From the NCBI RefSeq assembly GCF_009905375.1, contig NW_027417548.1, positions 1 to 64,000 on the forward strand: DNA of 64,000 nucleotides. Reading direction: 5' to 3'. Below are positions 1 through 52,467 of the stretch, piece after piece. The first letter of the stretch is position 1. Each line of letters opens with the position of its first letter. The translations under genes and the position numbers were made by a program. Origin of the DNA: Apium graveolens. Its lineage: Eukaryota; Streptophyta; Magnoliopsida; Apiales; Apiaceae. Below the pieces are notes generated by a model. That model was not told the DNA's origin. It saw nothing but the letters and a program-made list of their open reading frames with translations, and did not search any database.

Positions 1-1290
1 GGAAAAGATGAACAGTATTCGTCGGAAAAGATGAACATGCTTGGTGGTGGTGATTATTGGGGGCTGAGATTGCTTAGGGTTAGTGGTGGCTCCTTTGCGC
101 TCTCGCTTCTGACCCTTTACAATTTGCCTACATACCCCTATTTAGGGGATCAAGTCCACGTAGTTCTTGGGGAAAAAGAAACCTAATGGGCTTAGATTTC
201 TTATCCCAAGGCCCAGTAGAAAACCCACTGGAAACCGTCTTCTACTAGCTTTAGGAATGTCGCCGATGAGGCCCAACCACAAAGGCCCAAGGCTCATCCG
301 TGGCTTCGAGACTTCACGGATTAGGCATCTCCCTGGCCAATGATAACCCTCCGCTACCAGCTGTTTCTCTAGTCCACCGACGTAGGTATAGCCGTGATTC
401 ACCCCAAATGTTGGACGCATTCTTGTCCCCCGATAAGGAGCCCCTACCAGATTGCAGAACAAGTGATCCCAAGCTTTTGGGTGCAAAGTGCAGGATACTC
501 CAAAGTCTCCCAACAAAGACACCCGTTGACTACAAAAACAGAGCTCCCAAAGCACACACCAGATTTCACCCCACATCCCCAATGAGGACACCCATTGACT
601 ACAGGAGGAGGCCTTCAGTCCAGGCATACCCCTGGAGGTCTCTGACCACGGACACCGCCTTTCCCGTAGATATGCTACAGGAAGGAGTTCTTCAATAGAG
701 TACCAGCATCAAATAGGTTAGTAATAATAATCTCCATCTTCCTTGAATCTTCCAAAAAGTTCGTCCAAGTAGCATGTCAAAGTTGTATTATGTGCCAAGT
801 GGAAGTTAAGGCGCCCAAACATTCCTGCATGTTGGCGCCGCCCTGTGTCATCAGCCCTTGATCTCTTCCTTTGTCATTCTACATCATAGGGTGCGCCTTA
901 AATTACTCACCATTAGGGCTTGCCCCAACTCTGTCCAGTAAAGCCAAGGCATGAGTCTGTGAAAGTAATCATGTCCGAGTAATCCGTCCAAGGAGCCTTC
1001 CTCACTCAGGGCGCGCCCTAAGTCTCACCATGGAACAGAATCCAATCAAGGAATTCCTCACCCCCTCTTCAATAATTGGACGCGCCTCCCCATTATGTTT
1101 GAGGGCGCGCCTTTAAGGCATGTTAACCACAACTGTCAATCAGCTATTCAATCAATGGGGCGCGTTCTTAGGGCGCCTTCTTTTATGGAAAGTCAATCTT
1201 ATCTTTTCCTAGATTTTAGGCGTTTCTCCTTCGATTTTGCCTATTTTATCAATCTCAATCTGAATATTGTTTATACCAATTTTTGGGACA
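1..1290 (-). repeat. 3' LTR of element A (cut by window start)
   Basis: This aligns along its length with 12779-14062. In plus orientation it should begin TGTTGACGG, but that part lies before the window. Its end is read from the alignment with the right LTR (...GCATAACA) and from the adjoining polypurine tract; the copy here ends GGGACA after loss of about four bases. The LTR TATA box seen as TATTTATA at 12897-12904 is reduced to TATTTAGG at 139-146. Confidence 0.9.
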
Positions 1291-1307
1291 ACTACCCCCC
1301 AAATTCC
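1291..1307 (-). other. Polypurine tract of element A
   Basis: On the minus strand this reads GGAATTTGGGGGGTAGT directly before the 3' LTR, where plus-strand DNA synthesis is primed. The same sequence sits at the same place in element B (37097-37113). Confidence 0.8.
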
Positions 1308-1590
1308 CTATGTCATTGAAAATGGGATTGGAATTTTTTCTTCATCCTTATCAAAATCTGTATAAATAAACTCTCCAATATTATTACTAGGCGCCTTCAA
1401 TAGAGCGTGCTTTCTTAAAGTTCCAAATTTGCATCCAGGACTTCTAGTTACTGAGATAATTTATACGAGGCGCGCCTTCAAGAGGGCGCGTCCAAAAATT
1501 TGAATTATTTTTAAACGGTTCCCCTATTTATTCGAAAATCGTGCCTGACATGATTGACGTGATTTATTTTAACAGCTGTCATTTTTCAAC
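1308..1590. other. Non-coding stretch before antisense-gene promoter
   Basis: I see no gene here. It holds one exact GGCGCGCC (1469-1476), a nearby GGCGCGTCC (from about 1484) and AT-rich DNA leading into the TATA box of the antisense gene. The first 40 bases resemble 37114-37145 of element B. Confidence 0.6.
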
Positions 1591-1597
1591 TATAAAT
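1591..1597 (+). promoter_or_regulatory. TATA box of the antisense gene in element A
   Basis: TATAAAT is preceded by C and followed by a CT-rich leader with the usual look of a plant 5' UTR. A donor-like GTAATG follows at 1765. The placement upstream of the antisense gene fits an independent plus-strand promoter inside the element. No transcript evidence is available here. Confidence 0.55.
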
Positions 1598-1619
1598 ACC
1601 ATCATATCCTTTTTTTACT

Positions 1620-2500
1620 TTTCACTCTTACCCCTCTCTCTTACTTTACCCCCTTTCCTTTTCAGAGCACCACCACCGGCGGCACTACCCTTCTGCTCAG
1701 AATTCTCCTCCTCGGCCACCATTTCCCCCAACTTTTCCGATCATTCGCTTCTTCATTTGAAAAGGTAATGTAAAACTTCTTTCTTTTCTGAATTTCATCA
1801 CATAAATCACATTGCATGCTACTTTATCTCTTCAACTCCCTTAACTGTTCTTGAAAATATACATAAATGGTGTATGTGTCTGTGTATATATATGTGTAAT
1901 TTCGAATTTTTACTGATTTAGATCCAAAATCTTTGGGTTTAACTTTAAATGGTTGTTTTTGAGAATTTCAATCGTTAGTGCCCTTATGCCTTAAAAAACC
2001 ATTACCTACGATCTACACATGACCATCGTGCCTTTAAAATCTGCCAGCAACTTAGGACGCGCCTTATCTTTAGCCTCTTATAATCTGTACATGGACCATA
2101 ATAGGGCGCACCTTTTGTAATAAAACATATCCTTATGAATAGACTAGGATTTTCTTTGGTGCGCCTTCTCATGAGAAGGCTTGTCTTAGAAGGGAGTTGG
2201 ACATAGATCATAGGAAATATTCTTCTCTTACACCTCTCCCTATCTTTCCTGTTTCCTTTATACTTTCGTATCTCGTTCTTTCGTATCGGGCGTGTCCCTC
2301 AAAATTCTTTGGTTTTCTTGACAGCTGGAAGACGAGGGCGCGTCCTCTCCTTTTCACCCTTTCAAGCATTTCCTCACAAATTTGGGGATCTATTCGTCTC
2401 CAAACATTTACTTCGATCCTCAGCCCCCAATGCTCACCATACTCATGAATTTCTGAACCGGGTGGCGCGCCTTCTTCAAGATTCCAAAAAGGGTATCTTG
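1620..2500 (+). other. Putative 5' UTR exon and first intron of antisense gene
   Basis: A CT-rich segment (about 1620-1764) ends AAAAG before GTAATG at 1765, a plausible splice donor. From there to the ATG at 2501 there is no convincing reading frame. The acceptor was not fixed. Motif copies include GGCGCACC near 2104, GGTGCGCC near 2158 and an exact GGCGCGCC at 2464-2471. Confidence 0.4.
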
Positions 2501-5036
2501 ATGGCAGACTCCTCAGACAGTTCTTCTACGGACAACATTCCTTTATCTCGTAGACACGGGAAGCAGAAGCTGGTCCAAAAGGACAGATCCCCAGCCCCAG
2601 ATAGGACAGAACTGGATGACGATGACTAGTTCGAGAGTTGAATGCCGATAGGTATAGGGGTGTTGAGAGGGGTGTCAACGTAGGTGCAGGACCTTCTAAA
2701 GTATCCTACAGGGCTGTTTCCCCAAGCCCATCTCCTCAACAAACACAGGGCGCGCCTACTTCTTTTGTTTCTGAGGGTGCGCCTGAAGTAAGTTGTGTCA
2801 CCTCTCCGTGATAAAGAAAATTTCTTTGATGAGGACTCCTTCCAGTTTTCCACCTCCCCTGAACTTCTCCAATCCCCCTTCCAACACTGGGAAGGTTCTG
2901 ACAGTGAATTAGGACTTTGATTGGGATGAATTTGAACCATGCAATGAAGCTGTGAAGAAACATTTCGGGAAGGAAACTTGGGAGCTTTTCTGTGTGGGCC
3001 TGTCCTCAGCTTGTTCAGATGAGAAACTAGGATGGCTCATGGAGTTTTATGATATGGAAGGCATATGGGCGACCCTTTGAGCATGATGCGGCCCCATATC
3101 TTCAACATGGAAGGAACTTTAAAATTCCTAGGAATGGTAACAGCCCAAAACTGTATCTTTGGGTATAGGCGCGCCCTCACACGCCTATCTTAGGAGAAGT
3201 GATAGAACTTTACGACGTGGCTCCACTCCAACTTTCTCCCAACCACTACAAGTTTATTCTGGCCCTGTTATTCTCTATACAGACCTGGGCTTCCCTCAAC
3301 CTTCCATGGTTGAAGTTGCCTATTTCTTTAACTTGAGAAAGTCTGACCATGGGTACTACTACTTGGTTGTATACAAGAAACATAACAAGAAGGGTTTCTC
3401 CTTTGGCAAGCTTAGCCATGAAAAAGGCTGGAAGGAAAACTTCTTTTATTTGTATGACGTTCCCAGAATAAGGATAAGATTTAACAAGTCACCAAGTAAG
3501 GGCGCGCCCCTTTCTTTCTTTCCTTGCATTATTTCTATGTTATTTGCTCCTTTTCACACCTTTATACTTTTTTTTAGACAGACCAGTGGCCAAACCACTT
3601 AAGGCGAGCCCAAAAAATGAGCTGAAGCCCTTCTCAGAGTGGCTGCTGACAGGTGGAACCTAAAGACCTTAGTCACCTGGACTAACCTGATGCGAGTCGG
3701 AATCCTTTCTGACCAAGTAGGGACAAAGTGTAAATATGTAAAGTTTAGGAAAAGGCGCCCCTGTTTCCCGTATAATCGACCTAGATAGTGAGGAAGAGAC
3801 TGAAGAAGAAGAAGAAGAAGCATATGACAGCTCTTTTCAAGGCCAAGATCCTTCAGGTTTAACAATTGTAGAGTCTAAAGGCGCGCCCTCCTACAATTGG
3901 CGCGTCCTAACTTCTTTTTTGTTAGCTTTTGTATTAGCATACTGGATATAAATTCTTGTTCATGTGGTTAATCTTTCCGCCTCTCAGGGTGCGCCCTTTC
4001 ACTCTAGGCGTAGCATTTTATATATGTTTATCAATGTTATCTTTATCAATTGCTTTTATTTATTTCTCTGTTCAACACACTTAACTGTCACATTCAATTA
4101 ACATGTTCTATATTTTATGCAGAAATGGCTCCTCCAAGAATTCCCAAGTCTTTTGGGGGCGCCCTGGTGACAAATCCAAGCCTAAGCCGAAGAAAGATGC
4201 TCCTGCAGCACAGGCATCTCAAATCACTCCTATCTTGAAAAGGCCCGTGATCGATCTTATAGATAAACAAGGCGCGCCTAAGAGGCATAGAGCAGAGGGT
4301 GCGCCTTCAGGCTCTTCTGCTGCCTTGAACGCTCTTGGCCCCATGGGTTCCTTCACGTTTCAGATGAAGAAGTGGAATAGTGGCAAGCCATGGATTTGGG
4401 AGATGCTGCTCGTACTTCTATAAAGGCATCTTGCCAATTGTTCATCCACTCCACCCGAGTGGTGGACAAGCTACTTGAAGAGGGGGCGTGCCTAGAGAGA
4501 CTGCAGGGTGACAACAACATTCTAAGAAACACCCTCAAGGACAAGGACTTTTTGCATGCTAAGGATATCAAGGCCAAGGACTCTGAAATCTCCTTTCTCA
4601 AGGATGATGTGGCCAATCTCACTTCTCAGCTAGAGATTGCCAACAAAAAGGCTACCTCTCTCCACACTGAGCTTGGTGTAGCCAACTTGAGGATTGAGTA
4701 TCTGAAGGAGCAGCAGAAACTAGGCTGGCCTGATGAGAAGAGGGAAATGACTGATGAAGCATTTTCCAAATGTTTCCACTTCTACAGGGTTGTTTTGTGG
4801 CCAATGACCCTGATTATACTTTTGAGAAATTTGGGGAAGAAACCGTTGCTGAGATGGTGGAATTTAAGAAGGAGCATGTTGTTGAAATCAAGGCAAGGAG
4901 GATAGAACTTGGGTTGGAGGAGGAAGAAGGTGAGGGCGCGCCTCAAGAGGAAATCCCCAAGGATGCGCCTGAAGCTGATCCCACTGTTCCTCTTCAAACC
5001 ATTCCTCTAACAGACCAGTCTCAAGGCGCGCCTTGA
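2501..5036 (+). pseudogene. Antisense gene (aORF) of the Tat-type element, broken
   Basis: The gene lies opposite to gag-pol, between pol and the 3' LTR, where Tat-lineage elements are known to carry an antisense ORF of unknown function. The ATG at 2501 opens a serine-rich N-terminus (MADSSDSSSTDN). Parts follow in shifting frames: an acidic segment with DFDWDEFEP (about 2910-2940); a globular part with YFFNLRKSDHGYYYLVV and KGWKENFFYLYDVPRIRIRF (about 3310-3480), resembling the family listed as putative gypsy-type transposon (PF04195); a coiled coil (4390-4740); and an acidic tail with EKFGEETVAEMVEFKKE ending in QGAP (4770-5036). Likely introns are 3496-3581 (GTAAG...ACAG) and one ending at 4122 (TTTTATGCAG). 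At least four frameshifts or stops break it (2627, about 2812, about 3300, about 4770). The exons carry Gly-Ala-Pro or Asp-Ala-Pro repeats from the GGCGCGCC motif. Function is unknown. Confidence 0.7.
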
Positions 5037-5960
5037 TTTATGTCTTTCCTTTATTTGTACTTAAGTTTTAAATACTTCTGAGGAGCCAGCCCTCTTTTGA
5101 TGCTGTGCAAAGTTGTACGACTTATTTTTCTGCTACTCTTTTACTTTGCATCATGACATTTCGTATGACTTAATATGATTTTATCATTCTCAGTATGCAT
5201 AAAAATTTGTTAAGGCACTCTGACCTTCTCTTGGTTACTTATTAAAACATGACTCATATTTTCACGATGGCGCGCCCTCATATCACCATAAATCTTGTCA
5301 GTTCATTATGACTTATGTTTCCACAAGGCGCGCCCTTTGATATCAGAACTTATTTATTTAGCAAATTTGTGGGTGTTTTCTTTTTACGTGATCTCGAAGT
5401 TGTTATCGTATCATTAAGATCTAACGTCCCTTTTATCATAGCATTTAGATATGAGGGCGCACCATATTTCTCGAAGTTGCAAATAACACGTACTTTTTCT
5501 TATCAGTAATGCCTTTGCGATATTTTACTTACTTATCAGTCCAAGGGCGCGCCTTAATTTGGGGAGCTTTTGCCTTAGCTTATTTTGTTGGCCATGTACA
5601 TTTATTCCTTTCATCCTTGTATACTATGTTTATCTTGATTATGAAGCAGAAGTTATTAGATAGGGTGCGCCTCAACATAGGGCACGCCTCTGATGTTTTT
5701 CAAATGAAAAGTTTCATGTCAAGCAAATAAAGCAATTTGAAGTAACTTTTCCCTTTTATTGATAATGCGCTCTAGTGTATAAATTACACCAGTCCCATGG
5801 CTACTATGCTCTATGGAGAAATTATTTGAAAAAATTTCTTCCTTCTGCTAGTTCCAAGGTTCGCAGTCACATGTCTACCTCCTAGGCTAGGAGGAATTTA
5901 TTTGCTACTAGCCTATTACATAAGAATCAAATAAGAAAATAAGGGGGACACAGCCACACC
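5037..5960. other. Non-coding 3' region between pol and antisense gene end
   Basis: There is no convincing gene. The segment is AT-rich with three exact GGCGCGCC copies (5269, 5327, 5546) and decayed ones near 5455, 5664 and 5682. It would be the 3' flank of both convergent transcription units, pol on the minus strand and the antisense gene on the plus strand. Confidence 0.6.
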
Positions 5961-6932
5961 CTATTGATAATACTTCCGTAAATGTTCCGCATTCCATGCT
6001 TGAGGAATAAGTTTACCATCCAGATCTTCTAAGTGATAGGTTCTCTTCCAGAGTATAGCTTTAACCTTGTACGGTCCTTCCCAATTAGCTCCAAGCACCC
6101 CGTGTTGAGCTATCTTAGTGTTAGGCATAACCTTTCGCAACACAAGATCTCCAACCTTGAACGGTACGGATTTGACCTTTTTATTGAAATACCTTGTGAT
6201 TCTCTGCTGATACGCAGCAAGCTTTAATTGAGAGTTCGTTCGGGCTTCGTCTAACAGATCTAAGTGAAGCCTCTGGTTAACTTCTGCATCTTCCTCAACA
6301 AACACGTCTTTCCGGAGGGATCCAGCTCCTACCTCTACGGGAACCATGGCCTCATACCCATAAGTTAGCAGAAAGGGGGTTTCTCCTGTGGTCGATCTAG
6401 AGGTCGTATTGTAAGACCAAAGGACCATGGGCATCTCCTCTGGCCAATCTCCTTTTTTCTCTTCTAACTTTGCCTTCAAGGTATGTTTTATGATTTTGTT
6501 TATGGCTTCCGTCTGACCATTACTCTGCGGATCATAAACCGCGGCGAAGTCCTTTTTAATTTTCAAGTCCTCACAAAGCTTCCTTAACTCTTTACTATCA
6601 AACTACTTCCCATTGTCTGAGATGAGTTTGTAGGGGATACTGAACCTGCATACTATGGAATTGAACACGAAATCCCTTATCTTCTTTGCCGTGATCGTGG
6701 CTAGTGGCATAGCCTCTACCCATTTGGTAAAGTAGTCCACAACCACCACGGCGTATTTCACACCCCCCTTTGCTTTGGGCAACTCTCCAATGAGATCAAT
6801 TCCCCAGATGGCAAAAGGCCAGGGACTCGCCAATGAGGTAATGGTGGATGCCGGGGCGTTAGAATAGTTGGCGAATCGCTGGCAATGATCACAAACCCGG
6901 ACAAAATTGAAGGCATCTTCTCTCTAAGTCGG
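5961..6932 (-). pseudogene. Integrase core and C-terminus, element A
   Basis: Integrase would insert the element's DNA copy. Core motifs are CDHC near 6880-6890 (zinc-binding pair), WGIDLIGELP with the first catalytic Asp, SDNGK with the second Asp just before a stop at 6603-6605, and NGQTEAINK with the catalytic Glu near 6510. The C-terminal part ends VKAILWKRTYHLEDLDGK...NAEHLRKYYQ, typical of Tat integrases. The TAG at 6603-6605 stands where related proteins have Gln before FDS, so one C-to-T change explains it. Two more TAG stops sit near 6925-6940. All catalytic residues remain but the frame is dead. Confidence 0.85.
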
Positions 6933-7890
6933 CTAGTAGTATCCTTGTCTGAGTACTTTTAATGCCAACGAACCACCCCCTGAGTGATTGCCACAAATTC
7001 CTTCGTGCACCTCCCTGAGAATATAGTTCCCTTCTTCCATATCCACACAACGTAACAGTGGCTGATTAAATCTTCTCTTGTATAATATCCCGTCATATTC
7101 TACATACTTTGCAGCCTGGTACCGAAGGTGTCGAGCCTGTAATTTGTCTTCTGGTACAGCTCCTGTCTGAATATAGTTATGAATGGGGGTCATCCAGCTT
7201 TCTCGCAGGACTTTTTGCGTTTGAAGCACCTCTACCTCTGGAATACTTGGGATTTCCTGGATTCCCAAAGGGATTTGTCCAAGTTGAACGATGTCCATCT
7301 GTGAACCCATCTTGGCCAAAGCATCCGCATTACTATTTTCTTCTCGCGAAACGCTTTCTAGCCTGGCATTTGAAAATTTTTTCAGTAGGCATTGCGCACA
7401 TCTCATATATAACTTCGTTCGCGGTCCCCGGGCTTGGAAACCTCTGTTGACCTGTTTCACAACTAATTCGGAATTGCTTTGAACTATCAGATTCATGGCC
7501 CCTACCTCCAGAGCTAATTGTAGACCGTTGATCAAGGCTTCATACTCAGCATCATTGTTAGTAGCATAAAACTTGAAATGTATAGAACTCATCAAGCGGT
7601 GCCCCTCCGGAGTGATCAAAACAATCCCGGCACCTGATCTATTATTGGTCACGGCCCCGTCAACATGTAATATCCACCAAGGGTGTGGGAGTTCCTGCCT
7701 CTTCTTATCCTGAGAACTTCCTTGCGAGGTCGGTTCCGCCAACACTATGGCCTTGTCATCAACTTCTGTATCGAACTCAAGTATGAAATCAGCCAGTGCT
7801 TGTCCCTTGATTTCCGTGCGAGGACAATATTCCAAATCGAATTGTCCTAGCTCCACTGCCCATTTTAACATTCTCCCTGAATATGCCGAA
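6933..7890 (-). pseudogene. Second (archaeal-type) RNase H and integrase N-terminus, element A
   Basis: After a linker with SGRMLKWAVELGQFDLEY the frame encodes a second RNase H, a hallmark of the Tat lineage. Acidic sites are visible in HVDGA (Asp), DAEYEAL (Glu) and NADALAKM (Asp). The expected third site reads QSNSELVV, where related enzymes usually have SDSELVV, so a catalytic Asp appears to be Asn. The integrase zinc-binding histidines follow in REVHEGICGNHSGGG. The frame ends at a stop after RQGYY, where Trp is normal. The join to the RT frame near 7870-7890 is a frameshift. Confidence 0.8.
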
Positions 7891-9031
7891 GCGGATAAGC
7901 GGTGCGAACTTCTATTCGGTGAGCCTGAAAGTATGGTCTTAGCTTTCGTGCCGCAAGAATAAGAGCGTACACTAGTTTTTCCATGTTGGTATACCTGGTT
8001 TTTGTATCCAACAACCTTTTGCTCACATAGTATACGGGCCACTGGTGGCTTGCTTCTTCCTTTACCAACACCGTGCTGATGGAGTATTCAGATACCGCTA
8101 AGTAAAGAATCAACATTTCTCCGTCTTCTGGCTTGGCCAACATTGGAGGATTTCCCAACTGCTCTTTGATTTTTAGAAAAGCTCTTTCACACTCGGGGGT
8201 CCACAGAAAATCCTTTCCCATTCCTTTGATTGCCTTGAAGAATTCTTTGCACCTATCTGATGACTTTGAGACAAATCGATTCAGGGCCGCAATCCTTCCT
8301 ATCAGGCTCTGTACTTGTTTGACGCTGGTGGGAAATTTCATGTCTAGCAGAGCTTTGATTTTTGTCGGGTTAGCCTCAATCCCCCGATGGTTGACCATGA
8401 ATCCCAAGAATTTCCCTGACTCCACACCGAACACACACTTCTGCGGGTTTAGCTTCATCTTATATTTTCTCAGGATATGGAAAATTTCGGCTAAGTCGGC
8501 GATGTGGTCTTCCGCCCTTTTAGACTTTACGAGCATATCATCCACATATACTTCCATCGTCTTCCCAATATGCTTCTTGAACATTTTGTTTACCAATCTT
8601 TGATAAATAGCACCGGCGTTGATCAGACCAAATGGTATTCCGATATAGCAATAGAGCCCTCTATCAGTGATAAAAGAGGTGTGCTCCTGGTCAGGCTCAT
8701 ACATAAGGATTTGGTTATACCCGGAGTATGCGTCCATGAAGTTGAGCAAGGCATGTCCTGCTGTGGCGTCGACCAACTGATCAATTCTTGGTAGGGGAAA
8801 ACTATCTTTCGAGCACGCCTTATTCAGATCGGTGAAATCCACGCATGTTCTCCATTTGCCGTTGGGCTTTTTTACCAACACCGGGTTTGCTAGCCACTCT
8901 GGGTAGAAGGATTCTCGAATTAGTCCGACGTCCAGGAGTCTCTCTACTTCTTCTGCTAGGGCTATAGCTCTCTCTCCGCTTACGGCCCTGCGCTTTTGTC
9001 GAACCTCTTTATGCTTGGGGTCGATATTCAA
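7865..9031 (-). pseudogene. Reverse transcriptase and first RNase H, element A
   Basis: RT copies the element RNA into DNA. Conserved parts are LNIDPKHKEVRQKRR at the N-terminal boundary, WRTCVDFTDLNKACSKDSFPLPRID, the catalytic box EVYVDDMLVKS, FLGFMVNHRGIEANP, and the RNase H start LILYLAVSEYSISTVLVKEE. A TGA at 9032-9034 separates this block from the upstream linker; related elements read through with an amino acid here. The block leaves the frame at its end in the RNase H tail (HRIEVRTAYPLR). The Asp pair of the YVDD box is intact. Confidence 0.88.
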
Positions 9032-9034
9032 TCA

Positions 9035-9757
9035 GTGGCACATTACCTCTGGATCAATTCCTACCATATCAGAATGACTCAATGCAAATACATCAAGGTT
9101 CGCCAAGAGAAATATCGAAAGACCTTCCTTCAACCTTGGTGCCAATTGAGATCCTATTCTCAAAACTTTACTCGGATCTTTTTCATCGACAGGGATTTCA
9201 ATTGTATCTTCCACTGGCTCCATCATTTCTGTCGGCATGGGTATCCGGGGATCTAGGTCGGGCGAATCATGGATTTCATTATCTTGTAGAGAAGGCGCAT
9301 CCCCTTCAAGGGGAGCGTCGACTTCTTTAGAAGGCGCGCCCTGCACAGCAGGGGCATCAACTTCCTTGGTATATTTTACAGGTAAGGGCGCTCCTTCAGG
9401 GGGAAGGGCATATACCTCACACTTATCCTGTTCCAGGCTTTGCAAGACATCGAATCTTCCTTCTAACCGTTCCCCATTGAAATCTGTTTGGACTATGGTG
9501 TCCATTGCCTTCTCTTCTTCCAACATCTCAATTCTGATTGCGTCTTCCAAGTACAACATTGTTGGGGGCAGCCCGGAGGGATGCTCATCTTCTTGCTCAA
9601 CAGAGTAGTCAACTCGGATTTCCTCGATTGGTTGTTCAATGCTCTTTTCTTGATCTACGTCCGAAGTATCTTCGGCGTGGGAGTCTTTTCTAAAGCCTCT
9701 CATAGCTTGCCTGTAGCACTCCCGAGAGTCATACTGAGAACCCTTTATACTTCCCAC
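9035..9757 (-). pseudogene. Protease-RT linker with Gly-Ala-Pro repeats, element A
   Basis: This joins protease to RT in the same frame as RT and gag. It starts in SIKGSQYDSRECYRQA, a stretch usual between protease and RT in Tat elements, continues with an acidic low-complexity region, and ends PSKVLRIGSQLAPRLKEGL...HSDMVGIDPEVMCH before a stop. The acidic region holds PEGAP, VQGAP, VDAP twice and GDAP between about 9290 and 9400. The VQGAP codons are the exact GGCGCGCC palindrome at 9333-9340. No enzymatic function is evident for this part. Confidence 0.7.
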
Positions 9758-9830
9758 CCCATTTGGCGTTGGAAATTTTGACGGTTAGGTGGTGGATTGA
9801 GGTGATAACTCTCATCTCCCGCAAAAAAGG

Positions 9831-10292
9831 TCATCCCAATAGCACGTTGTGGGACGATCCCTGATTCAGGACCTTAAATTCAAGCACCTTTGTTACCGAC
9901 AACGGGCTTTCCCCCAAAGTACATGGTAGCCGAATCGATCCCATGACTCTAACTCCTGCGCCTGAAAAACCATAGACCCACAAGTCTTCCCCCGACATAT
10001 CCCGATCGGGTAGTCCCATCTTCTTGAAGGTGCTGTAGTAGAGGATATTTGCCGAGCTTCCATTATCCATGAAGGCTCTATGGACATTTTTGGTTCCGAT
10101 CTGGATGGAAATAACCAGCGCATCATTGTGGGGATGATGTACCCATCGGGCATCTGCTTCTCTAAAGGTGATATCCATGGACTCGCCCTTAAATACTTTG
10201 GGCGGTCGAGTTTCCACCCTATGAATGTCTGTGAGAGGCCTGAACCGGGCTTCCCTAGCGTATCTTGCCAAGGCTCGATTACTGCATTCCAT
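9831..10292 (-). pseudogene. Retroviral-type aspartic protease, element A
   Basis: The protease would cut the Gag-Pol polyprotein. The N-terminal part includes RPPKVFKGESMDITFREADARWVHHPHNDALV, usual before Tat proteases. The catalytic segment reads FMDNGSSANILY, where the family norm is D-G-S-S after Val/Ile, so an Asn is inserted or substituted next to the catalytic Asp. It closes at SSHNVLLG before a stop where the usual LGRP follows. The frame differs from both gag and the RT linker, so frameshifts lie near 10300-10380 and 9760-9830. The gag-frame shadow continues to 10339. Confidence 0.8.
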
Positions 10293-10381
10293 CCCGGGAT
10301 CTCCCCCGTAGATTGTTCGGATACTGCCATCCCTGACAATTTTTTTTCCTCCAGGGTATCATTGTTCGACCTGCGCGGGGC

Positions 10382-12373
10382 TCACCTTTCTTCTTCTTTT
10401 GCTCTATCATCATTGTGCTTCCTTACTTCCTTGACTACCCATTCACCAAGGTATCCTTCCTTGATAAGCGCTTCGATTTCATCTTTTAAATGTCGGCACT
10501 CATGCGTGTTATGTCCAGATGATGCATGGTATTCGCAATACTTTTTCTTGTCTTTGCTTTTCCATGATGATAAAGCTTCAGGTTTTCTAAATAGCCCTCT
10601 GTTTTTGTTTACTTCGAAGATATGCTCGATAGATGCGACCAAGGGCGTGTACCGGCTTGTTCTGTAGTCATAGTTTGAGGGAGGACTCCATCCCCTCCTC
10701 GTGCTTGCGGTATTCACCCGGTCTAGGCTTCGACTACTTCTTCTGTACCTTGGGCTTGGAGACCTATCCCTCTTCCTTCCTTTGCTTCTCTGACTTGACT
10801 GTGAAGTCAGTTGCACCTCTGTCAGAGATTGTTCTATAGCTTTAAAAGATTCTTCCAAAGCGAAGACATCTGCTAGAGTAGCCGGGTCTTTCCCTTGCAA
10901 GTGCTTCCAAAAGTCCGAGCCAACCCTTAATCCCGCAATCAAGAAGCTTTTCAGTGCTTCGTGTGATGCTCCCTTCACGCTGGTAGATTCAGCGTTGAAC
11001 CTTTTGAAGTACGATGTCAAGCTTTCATTTTCCCTTTGCCTAACATTGGCAAGAGTTGTGACAGAGGGCGCGTATCTCACCGCGGCTTGGAACTTGGTTA
11101 AGAACAGAGTTTTTATCTGATCCCATGAGGTAATCACTCCCGGCCTGAACTTTTGAAACCACTGCTGGGCACATCCTCTAAAGGTTGCTACCAAGAGACG
11201 GCATCGAGCCAAGTTCGGGACTTGATACACATCCATCTTTATATTAAAACGACCCAAGAACTCCACCGGATCTGAGTTTCTGTGGAAATGGAGATCGCTA
11301 GTAGTGTTGCGATACCGGGCCAGCAACTGTGCCTCTCTTACCGCCACCGAGAATGGGGAAGGGATTTCAGCTGTGGCCGTCACTCTACCTTCCAGGTGGT
11401 TAAGTAGCCCTTTTAGATCTCCCACATTGAAAGTTCCCACGCCTGGAATGTTCTGCATTTGAGGCTGTGGACCTTGGGGTTGTAATGGAGGTACCTCCAC
11501 TTGATTCCCCCCAGGAGGGGCTTGCTGCTGGTTCATGTTCTGGGTGTCTTCGGGTATCACAATCACTTCGGAATTCCGTCCTTTATTTCTCCCTCGATTT
11601 TCTTCTTGACCCTGGCCGCGGCCTCGAGCCGTATCGCGATCATAGTTTTTTACGTCTATGTGATCATTACGTTCCACATAGTCATAGTTATCTACTCGGT
11701 TATTCCAGCGGGAGTCAAGGCGACCGCGGTAATTGTCGCGACGGTATCCCTCTAAGTATCTACCTCGGCCTCCACCTCTTCCTCTCCATTGAGGCTTTCT
11801 CCAACGATCGTTTCCATACCAATGCCCATATCGATCCAGCGATCTGCGGGGAGGAGCTCTCTCATGATCGCGGTGCCACTCCTGATTTTCCTGGAAATTC
11901 AAGGGCACACGCGTTGGATCGCGGTGCCGCTCCCAATTTTCCTGGAAATTCAGGGGCACACGCGTTGTATCATGGGTCGTAACATCTCCACGATCAGCTT
12001 CTTTCTGCCATTCAAGTAACACCATTCTTAAATCATCATCGCCCAAGCGGATCCCCAAGCGATCTTTCAAAGCTGCGAAACCCCGTTGCTGATTCTCCGG
12101 CATCAACTCCGCCTGTCGCCGTTCCTCGAGACTACGTCCAGATGGGTGCGGAAGGGCGGCTCCCTGGTTATCTGCCTGCAGAATTTCCCGACCATCAGCA
12201 ACTTCTTCCACTAGCTCGATGATTGGGGACGTGTCATTTGAATAGTCCAGGCGCCGCGGGGTTATCGGCACATGCCCCCCTTCGGTGCGGCCATGGCCGG
12301 CTGAGGCATCCCTATCATTCATGGGTGCTTTTCCAGGTGCGTGAGTTACACGGCCACGACGAAGACCCCTCAT
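10382..12373 (-). CDS. Gag protein of element A, intact
   Basis: An uninterrupted 663-residue frame. Gag packages the element RNA into particles in the cytoplasm. The N-terminal 300 residues are charged and rich in Arg-Gly, with a 17-residue tandem repeat (TRVPLNFQEN... twice; 51-bp period at 11869 and 11920). A capsid-type retrotransposon gag domain follows (about residues 350-500: DPVEFLGRFNIKMDVYQV, GCAQQWFQKFRPGVITSWDQ, REN(E)SLTSYFKRF). Near the C-terminus, YCEYHASSGHNTHECRHLKDEIEALIKEGYL is the zinc-knuckle-like motif usual in Tat gags. The ATG at 12373 follows a 284-base leader after the 5' LTR. It ends with a stop, and protease starts in another frame. Confidence 0.88.
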   Translation of the reverse strand: MRGLRRGRVTHAPGKAPMNDRDASAGHGRTEGGHVPITPRRLDYSNDTSPIIELVEEVADGREILQADNQGAALPHPSGRSLEERRQAELMPENQQRGFAALKDRLGIRLGDDDLRMVLLEWQKEADRGDVTTHDTTRVPLNFQENWERHRDPTRVPLNFQENQEWHRDHERAPPRRSLDRYGHWYGNDRWRKPQWRGRGGGRGRYLEGYRRDNYRGRLDSRWNNRVDNYDYVERNDHIDVKNYDRDTARGRGQGQEENRGRNKGRNSEVIVIPEDTQNMNQQQAPPGGNQVEVPPLQPQGPQPQMQNIPGVGTFNVGDLKGLLNHLEGRVTATAEIPSPFSVAVREAQLLARYRNTTSDLHFHRNSDPVEFLGRFNIKMDVYQVPNLARCRLLVATFRGCAQQWFQKFRPGVITSWDQIKTLFLTKFQAAVRYAPSVTTLANVRQRENESLTSYFKRFNAESTSVKGASHEALKSFLIAGLRVGSDFWKHLQGKDPATLADVFALEESFKAIEQSLTEVQLTSQSSQRSKGRKRDRSPSPRYRRSSRSLDRVNTASTRRGWSPPSNYDYRTSRYTPLVASIEHIFEVNKNRGLFRKPEALSSWKSKDKKKYCEYHASSGHNTHECRHLKDEIEALIKEGYLGEWVVKEVRKHNDDRAKEEER

Positions 12374-25559: not shown

Positions 25560-25561
25560 AC

Positions 25562-34200: not shown

Positions 34201-34208
34201 CAAGTAAG

Positions 34209-35556: not shown

Positions 35557-37096
35557 TGTTGACGGAGAAATTTGGTAACAACAAAATTTGAGGTTTGTAG
35601 CCGGAATCAAGATCTATGACAGCGGTTCTTTGTCGGAAAACGTGAATAGTACTCGTTGATTTTATGAATAGTGTTCGTCGGATTTTATGAACAGTGTTCG
35701 TCGGATTTTATGAACAGTGTTCGTCGGGAAACATGAACAGTGTTTGGTGGTAATGATTATTGGTGGCTGAGATTGCTTAGGGTTGGTGATGGCTCCTTAT
35801 GGCTCTCGCTTCCGCCCCCTTACAATTTGCCTACATACCTCTATTTATAGGGGATCAAGCCCACGTAGTTCTTGGGGAACAAGAAACCTAATGGACTTAG
35901 ATTTCTTATCCCGAGGCCTAGTAGGAAACCCACTGGAAACCGTCTTCTACTAGCTTTAGGAATGTCCGCCGATGAGGCCCAACCACAAAGGCCCAAGGCT
36001 CGTCCGCGGCTTCGAGACTTCACGGATAAGGCATCTCCCTAGCCAAGGATAACCCTCTGCTACCAGCTGTTTCTCTAGTCCGCGGACGCAGGTATAGCCG
36101 TGGTTCACCCCAAATGTTGGACGCATCCTTGTCCCCCGATAAGAAGCCCCTACCAGATTGCAGGACAAGTGATCCCAAGTTTTTGGGTGATAAGTGCAGG
36201 ATACTCCAAAGTCTCCCAACGAGGACACCCGTTGACTACAGAGATAGAGCTCCCAAAGCACACACCAGATTTCACCCCACATCCTCAATGAGGACACCCA
36301 TTGACTACAGGAGGAGGCCTTCAGTCCAGGCATACCCCTGGAGGTCTCTGACCACGGACACCGCCTTTCCCGTAGATGTGCTACAGGAAGGAGTTCTTCA
36401 ATAGAGTACCTGCATCAAATACATTAGTCATAATTAACTTCATCTTCCTTTAGCCTTCCACGGAATCCGTCCAAGCAGCCATGTCTGGAACCTGTCCAAA
36501 ACCATTTCCCACATAGGGCGCACCCTACACTCTTTCCAGAGCACATTGAAGGTCCTTTACATCATGAGGACGCGCCTGCTTCCCTGAGGGGAGGGCACGC
36601 CTTCTCTATTGTCCAAGCGTTCATTGATTGCTCTTCCCCAAGTGTCTAAGCAGTCCATCAAGAAGCATGTTCAAGTCAAGTTCTGTGCTAAACTGATAGT
36701 GAGGGCGCGCCCAAGTGTTTCTCTTGGCGTCGCCCTGGTCATCAATCCTTTGATTTCTCTTATTAAGAGGGTGCGCCCTAAACTTGTCCAAAGGTAAGGG
36801 CTTTGGCTCGCACCAACCTGTCCAAGGGATTTGACTCGCGCCAACCTGTCTGAGAGCTTTACCTCGTGCCAACCCGTCTAAGGGTTTGGCCTCGTGCCAA
36901 CCCAGCCATGAAAACTCATTTTCTTGGCCGAGCTTCCTTGGTTGTCCGTCCTTGGCCGTCCTCCCTTGGCCATCCATCCTTGGATGTCCGCCCTTGGCTG
37001 TCCGCAAAAACCCGTTCTCTTGGTGTTCGCCCAAATTGAATTATGTCGACCCGGATTTGACTCGGATATCTTTTGTACCAAATTTTGGCTATAACA
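35557..37096 (-). repeat. 3' LTR of element B
   Basis: 1540 bp, TGTTGACGG...TATAACA. It aligns with 42815-44367, and its first about 900 bp align with the LTR of A. TATA box (minus strand) at 35842-35849. One exact GGCGCGCC at 36704. A run of related CTTGGCCGTCC words lies at 36920-37010. Confidence 0.9.
35644..35750. repeat. 23-bp tandem repeat in LTR of B
   Basis: Five units of GAACAGTGTTCGTCGGATTTTAT start at 35644, 35666, 35689, 35712 and 35735, the last shortened. The same array lies in the other LTR at about 42903-42995. Element A has fewer, altered copies at 1-40 and 12742-12800. Confidence 0.85.
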
Positions 37097-40000
37097 ACTA
37101 CCCCCCAAATTCCATATGTCATTGGAAATGGGATTGGAATTTTTAACTTTTTTGGCAAAAAAATTGTACGCATCGTTCTCTTAATAAAGCGCGCCTAAAT
37201 TGTTTAGCTTTCAGGGCGCAACCAAAGAATTTTAAATGATTAATACGTTGACCGTGGGATGTATATGTCCCCATTATCTTTAGACCCATGCAAAAATTTA
37301 TGTCATCCTTAATCATGAGGGTGCGTCTTCTGCAAGAGGAGCATCTACCTCGACAAGGGTGTTCATCCTTGGAGGACGCGTCCTTTGTAAGAGGAGCATT
37401 CACCTTGATAAGGGTCTTTTCTGAAAATAATAAAATTTGTGATAAGATAAGTGAAGTCTGAGCTGAGGGAAGTAGACATGCACTGCCTCCTAGATCATCT
37501 GTATTTATTTAAGAAAGAGGTATTTCAAGTAGAAGCATCCCAAACATGAGAATCTCACAATGAGGCATCTCAAGTATAAGCATCTCATGAAGAGATATCT
37601 TCTCGGAGGGATTTTTGAGAGTTTCCCCGAATTTGGTCATTTCCCTGATTTTGAGGAAAATCCATTTATCTTATGTTCGTGGCACCATGTGATGCCACGT
37701 AACCAATAACATGCGTCCTACCCCCCAAGTGCGCGTCCTTTATAAGGATATCATCTACTTCGATGAGGTATTTATACTTGGAGGGCGCGTCCTCTTTAAG
37801 AGGAGCCTCTACCTCGACAAAGGTAGTCATTTTTGGAGGGTGCGTCCTCTACTAGAGAAGCCTCTACCTCGACAAGGGGAATCATCCTTAGAGGGAGCGT
37901 CCTCTATAAGAGGAGCATCTGCCTCCACAAGGGGAATCATCCTTAGAGGGAGTGTCCTCTATAAGAGGAGCATCTGCCTCCACAAGGGGGATCGTCCTTG
38001 GAGGGCGCGTCCTCTGCAAGAGAAGCATCTACCTCGAAGGGTCTTCTACAGAATATTCATATAACAAAACTAAATTAAAGATCAATATATTTTTTTAGAA
38101 GGCTTCTATCTTCAACGAAGCTTAAGGGATGCAGAAATCATCTTATGAAGAAGCACCTCTCAACGAGGCATTTATCTCAGAGGAATTCACATGAAGTTGA
38201 ACGTCTTCCCTTAAAGCTGAACATCTTTCTGGGCTTTGGCATTACACTCAATTTGGATGTTTCCCGTACTTATGAAAAATCCATCTATCTTCAACAAGTA
38301 ATATTATGTGACGCCATAAAAATAATAACATGTGCGCCACCCCCCAAGGGTGCACCAAAATAGAATACCTTAGTCAATCCCTTAGCTCATTGCCGATCGA
38401 ACTTATCTTTGTGATCACTTTCATAATCTTGGCGTTGACTTCCAGCAATATTTAGTAACACAAACGTAACTTCTTACCTCTTGGATCTTTATTTCTCACT
38501 GATTTTCTTGAGAGTTCATGTACAGGTGATTTATGCATAATTGTCGAGCAACACACCTTATTTTCGCAATCTTTCATCACCAACACCAGTTACCAGCCTA
38601 CATAGTTCAAATTTCATTCAAAGGCGCGTTCAGTACCACATCATGGTAACATGCAAGGCTCTGCAATAATATTTATTTATTTTTTTAAAAAAATGTCAGG
38701 GCACGCCTTGTATGCATACATTTAGTACAAATTTGTCCCTTGCAGGGCCCGCGTCATGAATCTATGTCCCATATTCATTCTTTTCTTTTTATTATACCAA
38801 AAAGAAACCCATCTGCTGCCTTTGTTTGATTTTCGTATCTACGCACAACTCCACTATTCTTAGACCAAATGAGAATATACATCTTCACCTGTGTATGCAT
38901 TTATCTAACGTGCCTATGTATAATCCATGACCGTAAATCTCATGCAAATCAACACTCGTGAAGTGCTGAGTTTTTCCTCCTTTGATACTTTATATGACTT
39001 CTTCCAATAATTTGGACTCCTCAACTTCATCATTGCGCGTAATCAATACTAACATTTTACTTGGCGCGCCATTACTAAGCTGTTATATCCCTTTATTTTC
39101 GAACTTCCAAGGAGATCCTACTTTTAGAAGCTCATTTTATATTTTAATTTCACTCAACTCCTCGCATTTTGATGAATAGATTATACACAATCAAAAGCAG
39201 ATTCTCTTCCCTTTTCGTGTAAAAATAGTCAATTAACAATTTACTATGCACGTAAGACCCGCCGCCTTCACTTTCACAGTCACTCAAAGCAGTCATACTT
39301 CAGTAGTTTCAGTGCTCCAACTTATTTTTTATAATTATTCATGTAGATGGTGTATCAATAATTTCTGTAGCCATATAGACCCTACAACTCACTTATTCAA
39401 ATCATGTCACTAAATTTCCTTCATGAACCCCCAACATCATATTTTTTATTAAATTGTGCCTTCGCCAACTCTTTTAGTAGCTATATATTTGAAGTCATGA
39501 AATACATTTCTTCTCCTCAGTCATCAAAGCTAATCTACTTCTTTATATACCACCAATGTTTCTCTGTTTTTCCATCTCTGCTTTTCCATGCTAAGCAGTC
39601 TTCTTAGGCGCGCCCTTACTAGCTTTACTACACTACATATTGCTGCATTGACACATAAATTATACACTCATCCTGCGATTCCAAGGTTTTCAATGTCTTC
39701 TCCAGTTTTATTTCCTTTTATATTGTCAGCCCATATTGATTTCCCAAAATGGACAACTGTTTTATTAGTCGATTCAAATACCGTGGTTTGTGTACTTGAC
39801 TTGTCTTCCTACATTTATTTTGGAGCAGTGCATGCTATATATGTAGCACATGAATTTAGGCCGCATATTTTGACATAGACTTCAAGACTCACATAAACCC
39901 CATTAGCTGGTTCATTTTCTTTTAATGCACCATAACATCATCCTTGTATAATTATCCAATTTTTAATCAAAAGGACGTGCACTGAGGTACCATTTGAATG

Positions 40001-42814
40001 TCTTCAATCAAATATTTAATATCTTCTTCTTTTTCCTTGCAATCTATCCTTGAACTGGGCCCCGCTAACATGCCTCTAGTATTAAACATACAACATCCCT
40101 GTATGTCTGTAACATATGGGCGCGTCCTCAAATATGATTATGCCCCTCTGATAAAAAAAAAATTGTCGGGCCATCCAAATCCATTTTCCTTTCACTCGAG
40201 ATCAACAGACAGATGCTTCGACGATGCGTACATTATAGCTAGCATTAGCAACAATGATGTCTCAACTTTTCTTTTTGATTATTTTTAGAACAAGAGCGCG
40301 CCTTTTTGTATATATTTTACCCGTAAGCTGACCAAGTAGTAATTGTTTTTATTTATGCCCAAAATTTTATATGTTGCAGGCTCCGTCATCTTGCATGTTA
40401 ATATTCCCATTCATATTGTACAACCTCCCAGCTTTATCTTTATATGCATGCACATAAGTCTTAAAAATAAACTACTCCTTCCTTTATTCACCTAGGTAGG
40501 CCCCATGTGCTTTAACTTCCCACAATTAATAATGCACTAACTCCACCTTTCTATCAACTAAATACGAGTATTTGCACACAAAATAAAACTTGAAATCATC
40601 TAGGCCCCGCAGCTTCTTATATCTCTTTTCATTAATGAAAATTCATTGTATTTAATTAACTCATATTGATCCATGCATATAATATTGCATGCATTCGGGA
40701 ATACGTATTTTACTTTTCCCATACTTGCTCTTTACTCTCTGATTTCTGCAAACACCTTTCATTTTATATTCTAGGCGCGCCCTCTATTTAGTGTAGGCGC
40801 ACTCTTCTTAACAAAGTACTGAGATTTTTTAACTTAGTTTTTTCTTTCCCTGAACTTACCTTGGGCTTAAGGCGCATCCTTTTATTTTGTTTTTCACATA
40901 TGTGCGTCGTTTAAGAGTATCTCCAATTAGGATTTTAAATCAAAATTACTGACACCAAAAATATAAAGATATTATTATCTCTTTCTTCAATTGAATATTC
41001 AAAACTCAAATGCTTTATAGAGGGGCTCACATAAACATGGGGCCGCACCCTTGTCAAGAAGGGGGCTCTCAACGTTATTCTTGGAGCCGCACCTCTACTT
41101 TAGATTTACTCGCAAGATTGTTACTCCGCTTGATGCTAACGTTAAGCTTTTCTATTTTATTTAATAAGGCGCGCCCATCCTACTCCCGCAAATTGCTGGG
41201 ACAGTAAAATTAACGAAGACTTTTCCTTCTTTTCGGTAAATATAGGCGTGACCTCGTAACTCTTTACCGAACCGACAACTCGTACGTATACCTCCCAAAT
41301 ACAAGTGTTAATTTCTAGACTTTCAATGAGGATCGGTACTTATTAAGGCGGGTCCTGCTCCTCTTCATTCCTTCTTTCTAAATTGATAATTTGATGTACA
41401 TGCTTATTCCCTCATGTAGGACCCAACTTGCTACTTGCATGTATTAATTATTTAATTTATTACGCGAGCCCTTCCCATAATTAATCCATCACAATGTATT
41501 AGTGAGAAATTTACATGTACTTGACCATGCATATAGGTGCTGCACAAGCTCATCACATCCTTCTTGCATTTACTGCACTACATATATTGAGCAAAAGTCA
41601 TTTACATCGAGCAAAAGTGACTTTCTTTTTATTTACTTTCTTGGTGGCTCACCAAGCAAAACTTCAGAGTAGTACTACTTTGACTGAAAGTGGTGCGGGC
41701 ACAACCAAATTTATATATTCAGGCGCGCCATCTATTTTCAATGCTGAAAGAAAATGCCTGTCAATCCATTTTTTATGTAAAAAATGGAAAGCCACCTTTC
41801 TCCGCCTTATAACAGGGCTAATTCCAATTCTTTTATTCAATCCTTTATAGGGGCGCGCCTTGAGTGTTGATATTTCATCAGTATAAATCACCATCACATT
41901 TCCCGTACGATTATTTATTTATAATTTTCTTAATGATTTGCGGATCCAACTGCATTCCTTCATCTCATATCAAATAAAGAAGGAGTCCTATTCATCTATA
42001 TACTAACCATTATGGTTAAATAATACGAACCATTTTTACCTGCTCCATGTAGCAATATTGTTGCTTTACTTGGTCTTCAGTTTATATAAGGCGCGTCATT
42101 TATTCTCTAAATTATATCTTATATTGTTCTCTCTTCTGTCTTTGACAACTTTGCCGATAAGATTCTCCCTTTTTATTTTGTTATATATATATTTTCATGC
42201 AGCTTCCGCTATAATATGTTAATATAATTTAGGAGGGAAATCCCTTGATACTTCTTGGCAGGACGGAGGATTGACTCTTTTTATCCTTGTTAAGAAATAG
42301 TTTCCCATATCAATAAGGAAGATTTTGTCAAATGCAACTCACTGATAAGGGAGCGCCCATCACTCCTTCAAACAAGAATGTCTTTTTTTATTCGATAATT
42401 GAAGCTTCAATATATAATTTAGTAATTCCTTAATGAGGTGCTTTAGATACCAAATTAATCAACGAAAATAAGAGCAGACTTTAATACTTTTTTTGTAAAA
42501 GTTTGTAAACAGAGCGGCGCACACAGGAACATGAAGATCTCTGACTTTACCCCATCGTGGTAAAGGAGCTCTCTCTAACCTTCCCGGGCCGCATCTCTAA
42601 ATAATGTTTTGCTTTTCGAAGCTCAAATAGCAAATTATTCTCGTATCTACTACATAGTTGCCTACTGAAAATATGGACCCATGTCTCGCATCTCTCTTTA
42701 AATATAGTCAGCCATCTTCATCCTCCAGATCTCGCACCTTCTATATAATACGCCATTGATGCATCTTTCCTCCCAGATGCAAATCTTAATTAGCCCCTCC
42801 TTCTAGCGCCTATT
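37097..42814 (-). other. Non-coding interior of element B
   Basis: No open frame is recognisable as protein. It contains the polypurine tract at 37097-37113, a 55-bp minisatellite (37317-38045), AT-rich sequence from 38100 to 42760 and the primer-site leader at 42770-42814. Exact GGCGCGCC copies start at 39063, 39607, 40774, 41168, 41722 and 41852; decayed ones include 37184, 38623, 40112, 40295, 40797 and 42092. The interior otherwise shows no clear similarity to A. Confidence 0.75.
37317..38045. repeat. 55-bp minisatellite carrying the GGCGCGTCC motif
   Basis: Units start at 37317 and 37372, then, after a 300-bp interruption, at 37726, 37781, 37836, 37891, 37946 and 38001, each exactly 55 bp apart. 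A unit begins GAGGGCGCGTCCTCT, continues AAGAGGAGCATCTACCTC and ends in CAAGGG plus ATCATCCTTG. The motif of elements A and B is at the head of every unit. Confidence 0.92.
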
Positions 42815-44367
42815 TGTTGACGGAGGAATTTGGTAACAACAAAATTTGAGATTTGTAGCCGGAATCAAGATCTATGACAACGGTTCTTTGTCGGAAAATG
42901 TGAATAGTACTCGTTGATTTTATGAATAGTGTTCGTCGGATTTTATGAACAGTGTTCGTCGGATTTTATGAACAGTGTTCGTCGGGAATCATGAACAGTG
43001 TTTGGTGGTGGTGATTATTGATGGCTGAGATTGCTTAGGGTTGGTGGTGGCTCTTTAAGGCTCTCGCTTCCGCCCCCTTACAATTTTCCTACTACCCCTA
43101 TTTATAGGGGATCAAGCCCACATAGTTCTTGGGGAACAAGAAACCTAATGGGCTTAGATTTCTTATCCCGAGGCCCAGTAGGAAACCCACTGGAAACCGT
43201 CTTGTACTAGCTTTAGGAATGTCCGCCGATGAGGCCCAACCACAAAGGCCCAAGGCTCGTCCGCGGCTTCGAGACTTCACGGATAAGGCATCTCCCTGGC
43301 CAAGGTTAACCCTCCGCTACCAGCTGTTTCTCTAGTCTGCGGACGCAGGTATAGCCGTGGTTCACCCTAAATATTGGACGTATCCTTGTCCCCCGATAAG
43401 GAGCCCCTACCAGATTGCAGGACAAGTGAACCCAAGCTTTTGGGTGCAAAGTGCAAGATACTCCAAAGTCTCCCAACGACGACACCCGTTGACTACAGAG
43501 ACAGAGCTCCCAAAGCACACACCAGATTTCACACCACATCCTCAATGAGGACACCCATTGACTACAGGTGGAGGCCTTCAGTCCAGGTATACCCTTGGAG
43601 GTCTCTGACCACGGACACCGCCTTTCCTGTAGATGTGCTACAAGAAGAAGTTCTTCAATAGAGTACCTGCATCAAATACGTTAGTCATAATTAACTCCAT
43701 CTTCCTTGAGCCTTCCACAGAATCCGTCCAAGCAGCCATGTCTGGAACCTGTCCAAAACCATTTCCCACATAGGGCGCGCCCTACACTCTTTCCAGAGCA
43801 CATTGAAGGTCCTTTACATCATAAGGACGTGCCTCCTTCCCTGAGGGGAGGGCACACCTTCTCTATTGTCCAAGCGTTCATTGATTGCTCTTCCTCAAGT
43901 GTCCAAGCAGTCCATCATGCAGCATGTTCAAGTCAAGTTCTGTGCCAAACTGAGAGTGAGGGCGCGCCCAAGTGTTTCTCTTGGCGTCGCCCTGGTCATC
44001 AATCCTTTGATTTCTCTTATTAAGAGGGTGTGCCCTAAACTTGTCCAAAGGTAAGGGCTTTGGCTTGCGTTAACCTGTCCAAGGGCTTTGACTCGTGCCA
44101 ACCTGTCTGAGGGCTTTACCTCATGCCAACCCGTCTAAGGGTTTGGCCTCGTGCCAACCCAGCCACGAAAACTCATTTTCTTGGCCGATCTTCCTTGGTC
44201 GTCCGTCCTTGGCCGTCCGCCCTTGGTCGTCCGCCCTTAGCCATCCATCCTTGGTTGTCCGCCCTTGGCTGTCCGCGAAAACCCGTTCTCTTGGTGTTCG
44301 CCCAAATTGAATTATGTCGACCCGGATTTGACCCGGATATCTTTTTTACCAAATTTTGGCTATAACA
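42815..44367 (-). repeat. 5' LTR of element B
   Basis: 1553 bp, partner of 35557-37096. TATA box (minus strand) at 43099-43106. Exact GGCGCGCC at 43774 and 43961; at 43774 the other LTR has GGCGCACC. The primer-site leader lies at its left side (42770-42814). Confidence 0.9.
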
Positions 44368-52465: not shown

Positions 52466-52467
52466 AT

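Follow-up and report, generated by a model that had tools for sequence, protein, structure and literature searches.

A conserved, family-specific palindrome dispersed through a Retand-like retrotransposon of Apium graveolens is a candidate target of its antisense-encoded TRP28 protein

The first 64,000 nucleotides of contig NW_027417548.1 of Apium graveolens (the window) contain two long terminal repeat (LTR) retrotransposons, the Ty3/gypsy element A and its partner B, through which an 8-bp palindrome, GGCGCGCC, is dispersed. The palindrome is enriched in both elements, conserved among further copies of A, and replaced by a symmetrically altered version in a sister family; in the loci read, its version correlates with the family of TRP28 protein, and it is kept in B, which has no genes. 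We propose, with a rough probability of 0.55, that GGCGCGCC is the core of a palindromic target of the TRP28 protein that A encodes in antisense, and that this protein coats its own family and B and counters their silencing. TRP28 is probably the binder. That the outcome would be anti-silencing rather than plain transcriptional activation is a more tentative suggestion, made by analogy with a known transposon system.

The original prediction had counted 27 exact copies of GGCGCGCC, and each was found at its start position, 18 in A and 9 in B. None occurs in the 41,127 bases (21,500 + 19,627) beyond A and B, where further LTR elements are present. Among the 8-mers occurring in the window, GGCGCGCC has the highest ratio of observed to expected copies (27 vs 0.11, zero order). 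Markov resampling of orders 1, 2 and 3 yielded on average 0.04, 0.26 and 1.87 copies for A, compared with 18 observed, and 0.02, 0.05 and 0.68 for B, compared with 9 observed. The enrichment also withstands a control with other GC-rich 8-mers: in A and B together, just two GC-only 8-mers, both overlapping the motif, approach it (13 each), and the next one occurs three times. U3 and the region between pol and the 3' LTR (pol-3'LTR region) hold 2 + 12 + 3 of the exact copies in A, and U3 and interior hold 1 + 6 + 2 in B. The gag-pol part contains one copy and the four R-U5 stretches (3,520 bases) none.

In full, the motif spans 12 bp and reads A-R-GGCGCGCC-Y-T, a degenerate palindrome in which some positions are fixed and others loose. 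In the 54 half-site flanks (LTR pairs counted twice), R adjoins the core 49 times and A lies beyond it 39 times; this symmetric preference points to a 12-bp palindromic unit, as is expected of a dimeric DNA-binding protein. The sites are dispersed, have unlike flanks and resemble binding sites, which supports the earlier reading as a functional motif. However, while dispersal holds, the sites are not all independent events, since the LTR pairs duplicate sites and most A sites are common to the copies of the family. There are 33 one-mismatch sites in the window, 31 of them within A or B, which mostly derive from CpG transitions and from the change G2>A or C7>T. When the two LTRs of A and the two of B are compared, the differences at motif sites amount to one small gap and eight substitutions, all of them CpG transitions; beyond the motif sites there are 22 CpG transitions and 94 other substitutions.

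To follow the motif across copies, the window's own genome (3.33 Gb) was searched; the protein and DNA searches of the genome give lower bounds. Out of 40 scored matches, we took 14 more copies (L009-L022; 7.2-7.4 kb each) of the LTR and pol-3'LTR region of A, with 13-24 exact GGCGCGCC per copy. The resulting 15-row alignment has 34 site columns where any copy has the core, or 485 site-by-copy cells, and the core is the column majority at 31 sites, 25 of them outside U3. The GG/CC columns of all 34 sites show 5.8% pair differences vs 16.2% for 973 control GG/CC column pairs, and none of 20,000 random sets was as low. At the 31 majority-defined sites the GG/CC differences are 5.0% vs 13.7% in the control, and the motif CpGs differ in 12.8% vs 19.4% for other CpGs. 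Non-CpG bases are conserved in U3 as well as in the zone of the antisense gene and the two non-coding stretches. As the motif columns vary less than their surroundings, the sites of the A family are kept by selection while the neighbouring DNA drifts.

The way in which sites decay can be read from the 485 cells. The motif is exact in 278, has one CpG transition in 87, G2>A or C7>T in 28 and another single change in 25; the remainder comprises 21 gaps, 18 cells with two changes, 15 part gaps, 10 with four or more changes and 3 with two CpG transitions. Fourteen of the 21 full gaps are copies without one 27-bp tandem duplication of L019, through which a new site arose in that copy, and all ten cells with four or more changes (classed as unlike) fall at one site. 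Among the single changes within the motif, CpG transitions make up 77 of 128. The commonest non-CpG single change in A sites is G2>A/C7>T (28 of 128), which creates a half-site of the sister type.

Through the TRP28 homologue P0001 we reached the sister family, another TRP28 family of this genome, whose protein shares about 42% identity with that of A. This family carries AGGACGCGTCCT in place of A's palindrome. Six loci of 4.2 kb (L053-L058, from 101 scored matches) contain 5-17 GACGCGTC and 0-3 GGCGCGCC each, whereas the 14 A copies contain 0-1 GACGCGTC and 13-24 GGCGCGCC; for one A copy against one sister copy, the counts of the two words yield a Fisher p of 1e-8. In L057 and L058 the sole GGCGCGCC forms codons of GAPLHP in TRP28. 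In the A copies, 654 of the 804 half-sites have G as the base adjoining CGCG and 88 have A; of the 274 half-sites in the sister family, 188 have A there and 72 have G. The remainder of the half-site is alike in both families, whose sites are palindromic and share a 12-bp frame, AGG-N-CGCG-N'-CCT, with one symmetric base change.

Little DNA can be compared directly between the two families: merely 585-734 of 7.2-7.3 kb were alignable in the three pairs tried. One of 22 motif sites lies in alignable DNA for L022 vs L057 and for L022 vs L053, located in the TRP28 domain, and three of 22 for L011 vs L058. The sister loci, aligned in one orientation, are 53-77% identical between subgroups (L057 and L058, 90%). 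Their motif is conserved as well, with 25% differences in the outer G/C columns of 28 sites vs 45% in the control, and 0 of 20,000 sets as low. Of these 28 site columns, 9 show the exact motif in a single locus and the other 19 in two to five loci. Two related families, with 30 distant loci as the outgroup, thus appear to carry diverged motifs that track the protein.

These distant loci were the first 30 of a PF04195 search, in which 150 of 14,002 candidates were scored. All 30 (3.2 kb each, 95.5 kb) lack GGCGCGCC and GACGCGTC, and one hybrid was found. By TRP28 profile score they are distant from A, at 3-104 bits; 13 of the 14 A copies score 274-518 and the sister loci 444-471. Genome-wide, AGGGCGCGCCCT occurs 2,970 times and AGGACGCGTCCT 3,272 times, while the same patterns read backwards occur 12 and 5 times and the sibling palindrome AGGTCGCGACCT 7 times. 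A third TRP28 clade, consisting of matches at 51-56% to P0008, was dropped: A's TRP28 itself matches P0008 at 56% over 69%, so these may be A-family copies. A scan of viral contigs for TRP28 gave two stretches that fit a pattern, none of which was confirmed.

Two further observations concern TRP28 loci and proteins in general. In the TRP28 locus L059, the word AGGGGTAT occurs 9 times in 10 kb (0.31 expected) with unlike flanks, once as the palindrome AGGGGTATACCCCT, and it recurs in the related TRP28 loci L025, L026, L028, L029, L037, L040, L048 and L049. It is possibly the target of another TRP28 family, which is a suggestive observation only. GAP/GAS/DAP, the peptides that translation of the motif and its variants in one frame would give, are abundant in the TRP28 homologues P0001-P0031 (66 vs 8 in shuffles), of which one bears the name Heracleum sosnowskyi. 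This is a hint that TRP28 relatives elsewhere carry such motifs; the count is inflated by one conserved site and was not used as proof.

Element A carries gag, reverse transcriptase, RNase H and a second RNase H-like domain (Pfam), and its ends were read from the sequence. Its LTR pair (7-1287 and 12764-14055) has 95.4% identity. The pol-3'LTR region comprises about 4.6 kb without sense genes, and here the TRP28 profile matches the + strand at 2841-3584 (score 245), with two weaker overlapping matches; gag-pol is on the - strand. Single pieces of the window's broken antisense gene gave no PF04195 match. In copy L020, a stop-free stretch of 319 codons matches PF04195 (Transposase_28, TRP28) with 27.2 bits vs a cut-off of 26.2, and copy L013, with 24.2 bits, stays under it. 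Pfam gives nothing but PF04195 for the TRP28 stretch at E up to 1, and the last open stretch of the antisense gene has only weak coiled-coil matches, under the cut-off. With its long pol-3'LTR region and antisense TRP28 gene, A is best read as having Retand anatomy. Its internal part of about 11.4 kb compares with 7.4-12.9 kb in published Retand elements, and its LTR of about 1.4 kb is above the published 315-1,194 bp. The LTR region of A recurs at 98-100% on contig C2953 and on C2 near 93.95-93.99 Mb, perhaps as one locus that was assembled more than once. Minisatellite-like ATCCGTTGA repeats adjoin A (window 14838-15198), and in another TRP28 locus (L032, L060) copies of this word are arrayed at close spacing.

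The U3 and interior of B are not alignable to A, the interior edges excepted. A tblastn search with A's proteins and the TRP28 profile found neither gag-pol nor TRP28 in B, which we read as a non-autonomous partner that has nonetheless retained the motif. Its U3 contains 28-bp tandem repeats (36795-36902 and 44052-44160).

The mechanism that we favour would work as follows. The antisense-encoded TRP28 (PF04195) of A would bind A-R-GGCGCGCC-Y-T, most simply as a dimer. Sites dispersed over U3 and the pol-3'LTR region, that is, over regulatory DNA and the antisense gene, would allow TRP28 to coat its own family, and B, although without coding capacity, would be coated too through its own copies of the motif. 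Coated elements would resist silencing by losing methylation or heterochromatin, as is the case for VANC on VANDAL transposons. Target and protein would co-evolve, with GG-CGCG-CC in the A family and GA-CGCG-TC (AGGACGCGTCCT) in the sister family, so that the A-family protein would prefer ARGGCGCGCCYT and the sister protein AGGACGCGTCCT.

A motif that is selected, family-specific, kept in a geneless partner and symmetrically switched fits the target of an element-encoded DNA-binding protein. TRP28 is the candidate because its gene lies inside the motif-rich region, because its DNA binding has been predicted in print, and because of the correlation at the level of families. According to PMC11963269, antisense TRP28 open reading frames (ORFs) are found in 97% of Retand clusters, with predicted DNA binding and a role that is unknown; what antisense extra genes do in plant LTR retrotransposons is described as an open question there and in PMC7264820. 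The original prediction had named the element's own Gag or integrase as possible binders. A factor of the element itself is supported as a class, but Gag or integrase are less likely than TRP28. As a tentative generalisation, Retand-type TRP28 proteins could be sequence-specific anti-silencing or trans-activating factors, with protein and target changing together and non-autonomous partners being carried along.

Several points weigh against this proposal. The structure prediction for the TRP28 stretch is too poor (mean pLDDT 52.5, pTM 0.33) to show a DNA-binding fold. Where sites fall within antisense exons, protein constraint acts on them as well. The reading covers two related TRP28 families, and the other parts of the element, Gag and integrase among them, presumably diverge along with TRP28, so that the correlation is not specific to TRP28. 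Several of the distant TRP28 loci have other recurring words, but many have no strong dispersed 8-mer in their 3.2 kb, others have tandem arrays only, and the 10-kb stretches L060-L062 contain no dispersed word as strong. A dispersed target thus appears to be no rule for TRP28 elements, some families having no visible one. The scan for dispersed words gave scores of 9-30 for four A copies, 11 for the window's A and 16-36 for the six sister loci. However, negative-control stretches of the window reach up to 13 (12.6 at 23,656, a palindrome cluster, and 13.1 at 60,400), and scan scores up to about 13 therefore prove nothing.

The strongest competitor, though an unlikely one, is a host transcription factor that drives the promoters of the elements, with sites having accumulated as enhancers; this could be a CAMTA factor at CGCG boxes or another GC-box factor. 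The core GCGCGC contains the CGCG box, which is bound by plant CAMTA factors, the sites are also found in U3, and selection on host-factor sites would leave an identical footprint. Yet the constrained unit spans 8-12 bp and thus extends beyond CGCG: in the A copies, 264 of 402 CGCG are part of GGCGCGCC, and G occupies position -2 in 720 of 804 half-sites, which a constraint on CGCG alone does not explain. Together with the different symmetric version that the sister family keeps in the same genome, this speaks against the CAMTA assignment made earlier. A host factor also sits poorly with the absence of the motif from all 41,127 bases of the window that lie beyond A and B, with its absence from 30 of 30 distant TRP28 loci, and with the position of 25 of the 31 majority sites outside U3.

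The remaining explanations fit worse and are disfavoured. It is improbable that the motif is kept by mutation bias, serving as a mark of CpG methylation or chromatin or as a target of host silencing. CpG transitions are indeed the main form of decay (77 of 128 single changes), and their dominance suggests at least occasional methylation of the sites. But motif CpGs vary less than other CpGs (12.8% vs 19.4%), the non-CpG bases of the motif are conserved too, and an element gains nothing by keeping a silencing target. A methylation signal may rather be an effect of the motif.

Still less probable is an RNA motif, in which the GC palindromes would act as kissing-loop dimerisation sites, for which retroviral dimer initiation sites are the model, or as packaging sites for Gag. 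The sites are palindromic in both families and are kept by the geneless B, but when 127 sites from six copies were folded as RNA, only 1.6% (sense) and 0.8% (antisense) had the motif in a hairpin loop, below the rates with shuffled flanks (4.1% and 2.4%), the flanks are not conserved, and a packaging signal would not be scattered in this way across U3 and several kb. The equally poor idea of a self-spreading micro-insertion or mutational hot spot with no function for the element, the first of which the original prediction had also raised, can draw on the unlike flanks and on the site gained by tandem duplication in L019, but founders on sites that are shared between copies, more conserved than their surroundings and altered mostly by substitution, and on a symmetric R/Y degeneracy and a symmetric family switch that fit recognition, not copying. 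The comparison of filled and empty sites between copies, proposed at the same time, revealed no precise pair of 8-12 bp, the gap borders not having been inspected singly.

The features of A and B are collected in Table 1. Elsewhere in the window, direct repeats at 46414-47765 and 52466-53814 (98.7% identical) surround a copia-type gag and a zinc knuckle and probably delimit a young copia element. A fragment of a hAT-like transposase lies at 31437-32387 on the minus strand. A cluster of CATGATCATG palindromes, spanning about 130 bp, is located at 25815-25947, outside A and B, and repeats rich in CCGATCCG/ATCCG are found at 62234-63010, with five exact words in about 800 bp.

Table 1. Features of elements A and B, in window coordinates
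Feature	Position	Strand	Remarks
Element A, Ty3/gypsy, Retand-like anatomy	1..14062	-	left (3') LTR cut by window edge
U3 of A's 3' LTR	779..1290	-	exact motifs 1010, 1104; 2 one-mismatch sites
pol-3'LTR region of A	1291..5900		12 exact motifs, 16 one-mismatch sites
Antisense extra gene (TRP28 protein) of A, in pieces	2502..5036	+	broken copy, TRP28 matches in more than one frame
ORF at the place of A's integrase end	5961-6602		no significant Pfam match
Further RNase H-like domain of A	8042-6933	-	Pfam
Reverse transcriptase / RNase H ORF of A	7865..9031	-	RVT_1 3.1e-32
Sole exact motif within A gag-pol	9333..9340		
gag ORF of A	10382..12373	-	Retrotrans_gag 1.3e-14
5' LTR of A	12658..14062	-	exact motifs 13654, 13868, 13936, all within U3
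Element B	35557..44367	-	R-U5 91% like A's
U3 of B's 3' LTR	36486..37096	-	exact motif 36704; four one-mismatch sites
B interior	37103..42813		six exact motifs 39063-41852, eight one-mismatch sites
55-bp tandem array in B	37777..38037		units with motif-like sites; two are GGCGCGTC hybrids (37784, 38004)
U3 of B's 5' LTR	43743..44367	-	exact motifs 43774, 43961

The closest known system is VANC of the Arabidopsis VANDAL transposons (Hosaka et al. 2017). Copies of a 9-base motif recur in the non-coding DNA of these elements; this element-encoded protein binds them and takes away methylation, and related families have motifs of their own as family-specific targets (PMC5735166, PMC10398659). A resembles this system in its element-specific short motif in non-coding DNA, in the different motifs of related families and in an extra protein encoded by the element, which here is the presumed reader. 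In both cases the motifs are partly in tandem arrays, and some A sites are also found in antisense exons. However, VANC acts in DNA transposons, whereas A is an LTR retrotransposon with a different protein family, TRP28; the VANC21 motif is YAGTATTAY, while that of A is a CpG-rich, mostly dispersed palindrome.

The Retand elements surveyed in PMC11963269 share with A the long pol-3'LTR region, the antisense TRP28 gene and tandem arrays, and Apium graveolens clusters are listed in a table of that survey. Its LTRs are shorter than A's (315-1,194 bp vs about 1.4 kb), and its accessible parts describe no dispersed motif. Retroviral Tat, Rev and the antisense HBZ, as treated in the same survey, are similar to our proposal in being accessory, partly antisense-encoded regulators that act in trans on their own family; A differs in that its target is dispersed over several kb. 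The CGCG of the CAMTA box is contained in the core of A's site, which is longer, constrained and subject to the family-specific switch. In the titles and abstracts examined from the open-access literature, we found no report of such a motif or of a TRP28 target. The idea of setting VANC beside the extra ORFs of LTR retrotransposons has already been put forward in a paper on sunflower (PMC12844716).

The conserved, family-specific palindrome provides a concrete candidate target for an antisense extra gene. The two matched pairs, the A protein with GGCGCGCC and the sister protein with GACGCGTC, are testable crosswise in one binding assay. Should TRP28 not be the binder, conserved family-specific palindromes would still need explaining. 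If the proposal is true, Retand-like elements would have an LTR-retrotransposon counterpart of VANC that works via a different protein family. Anti-silencing by target-reading proteins would then also exist in LTR retrotransposons, and it could help to explain how large genomes are filled.

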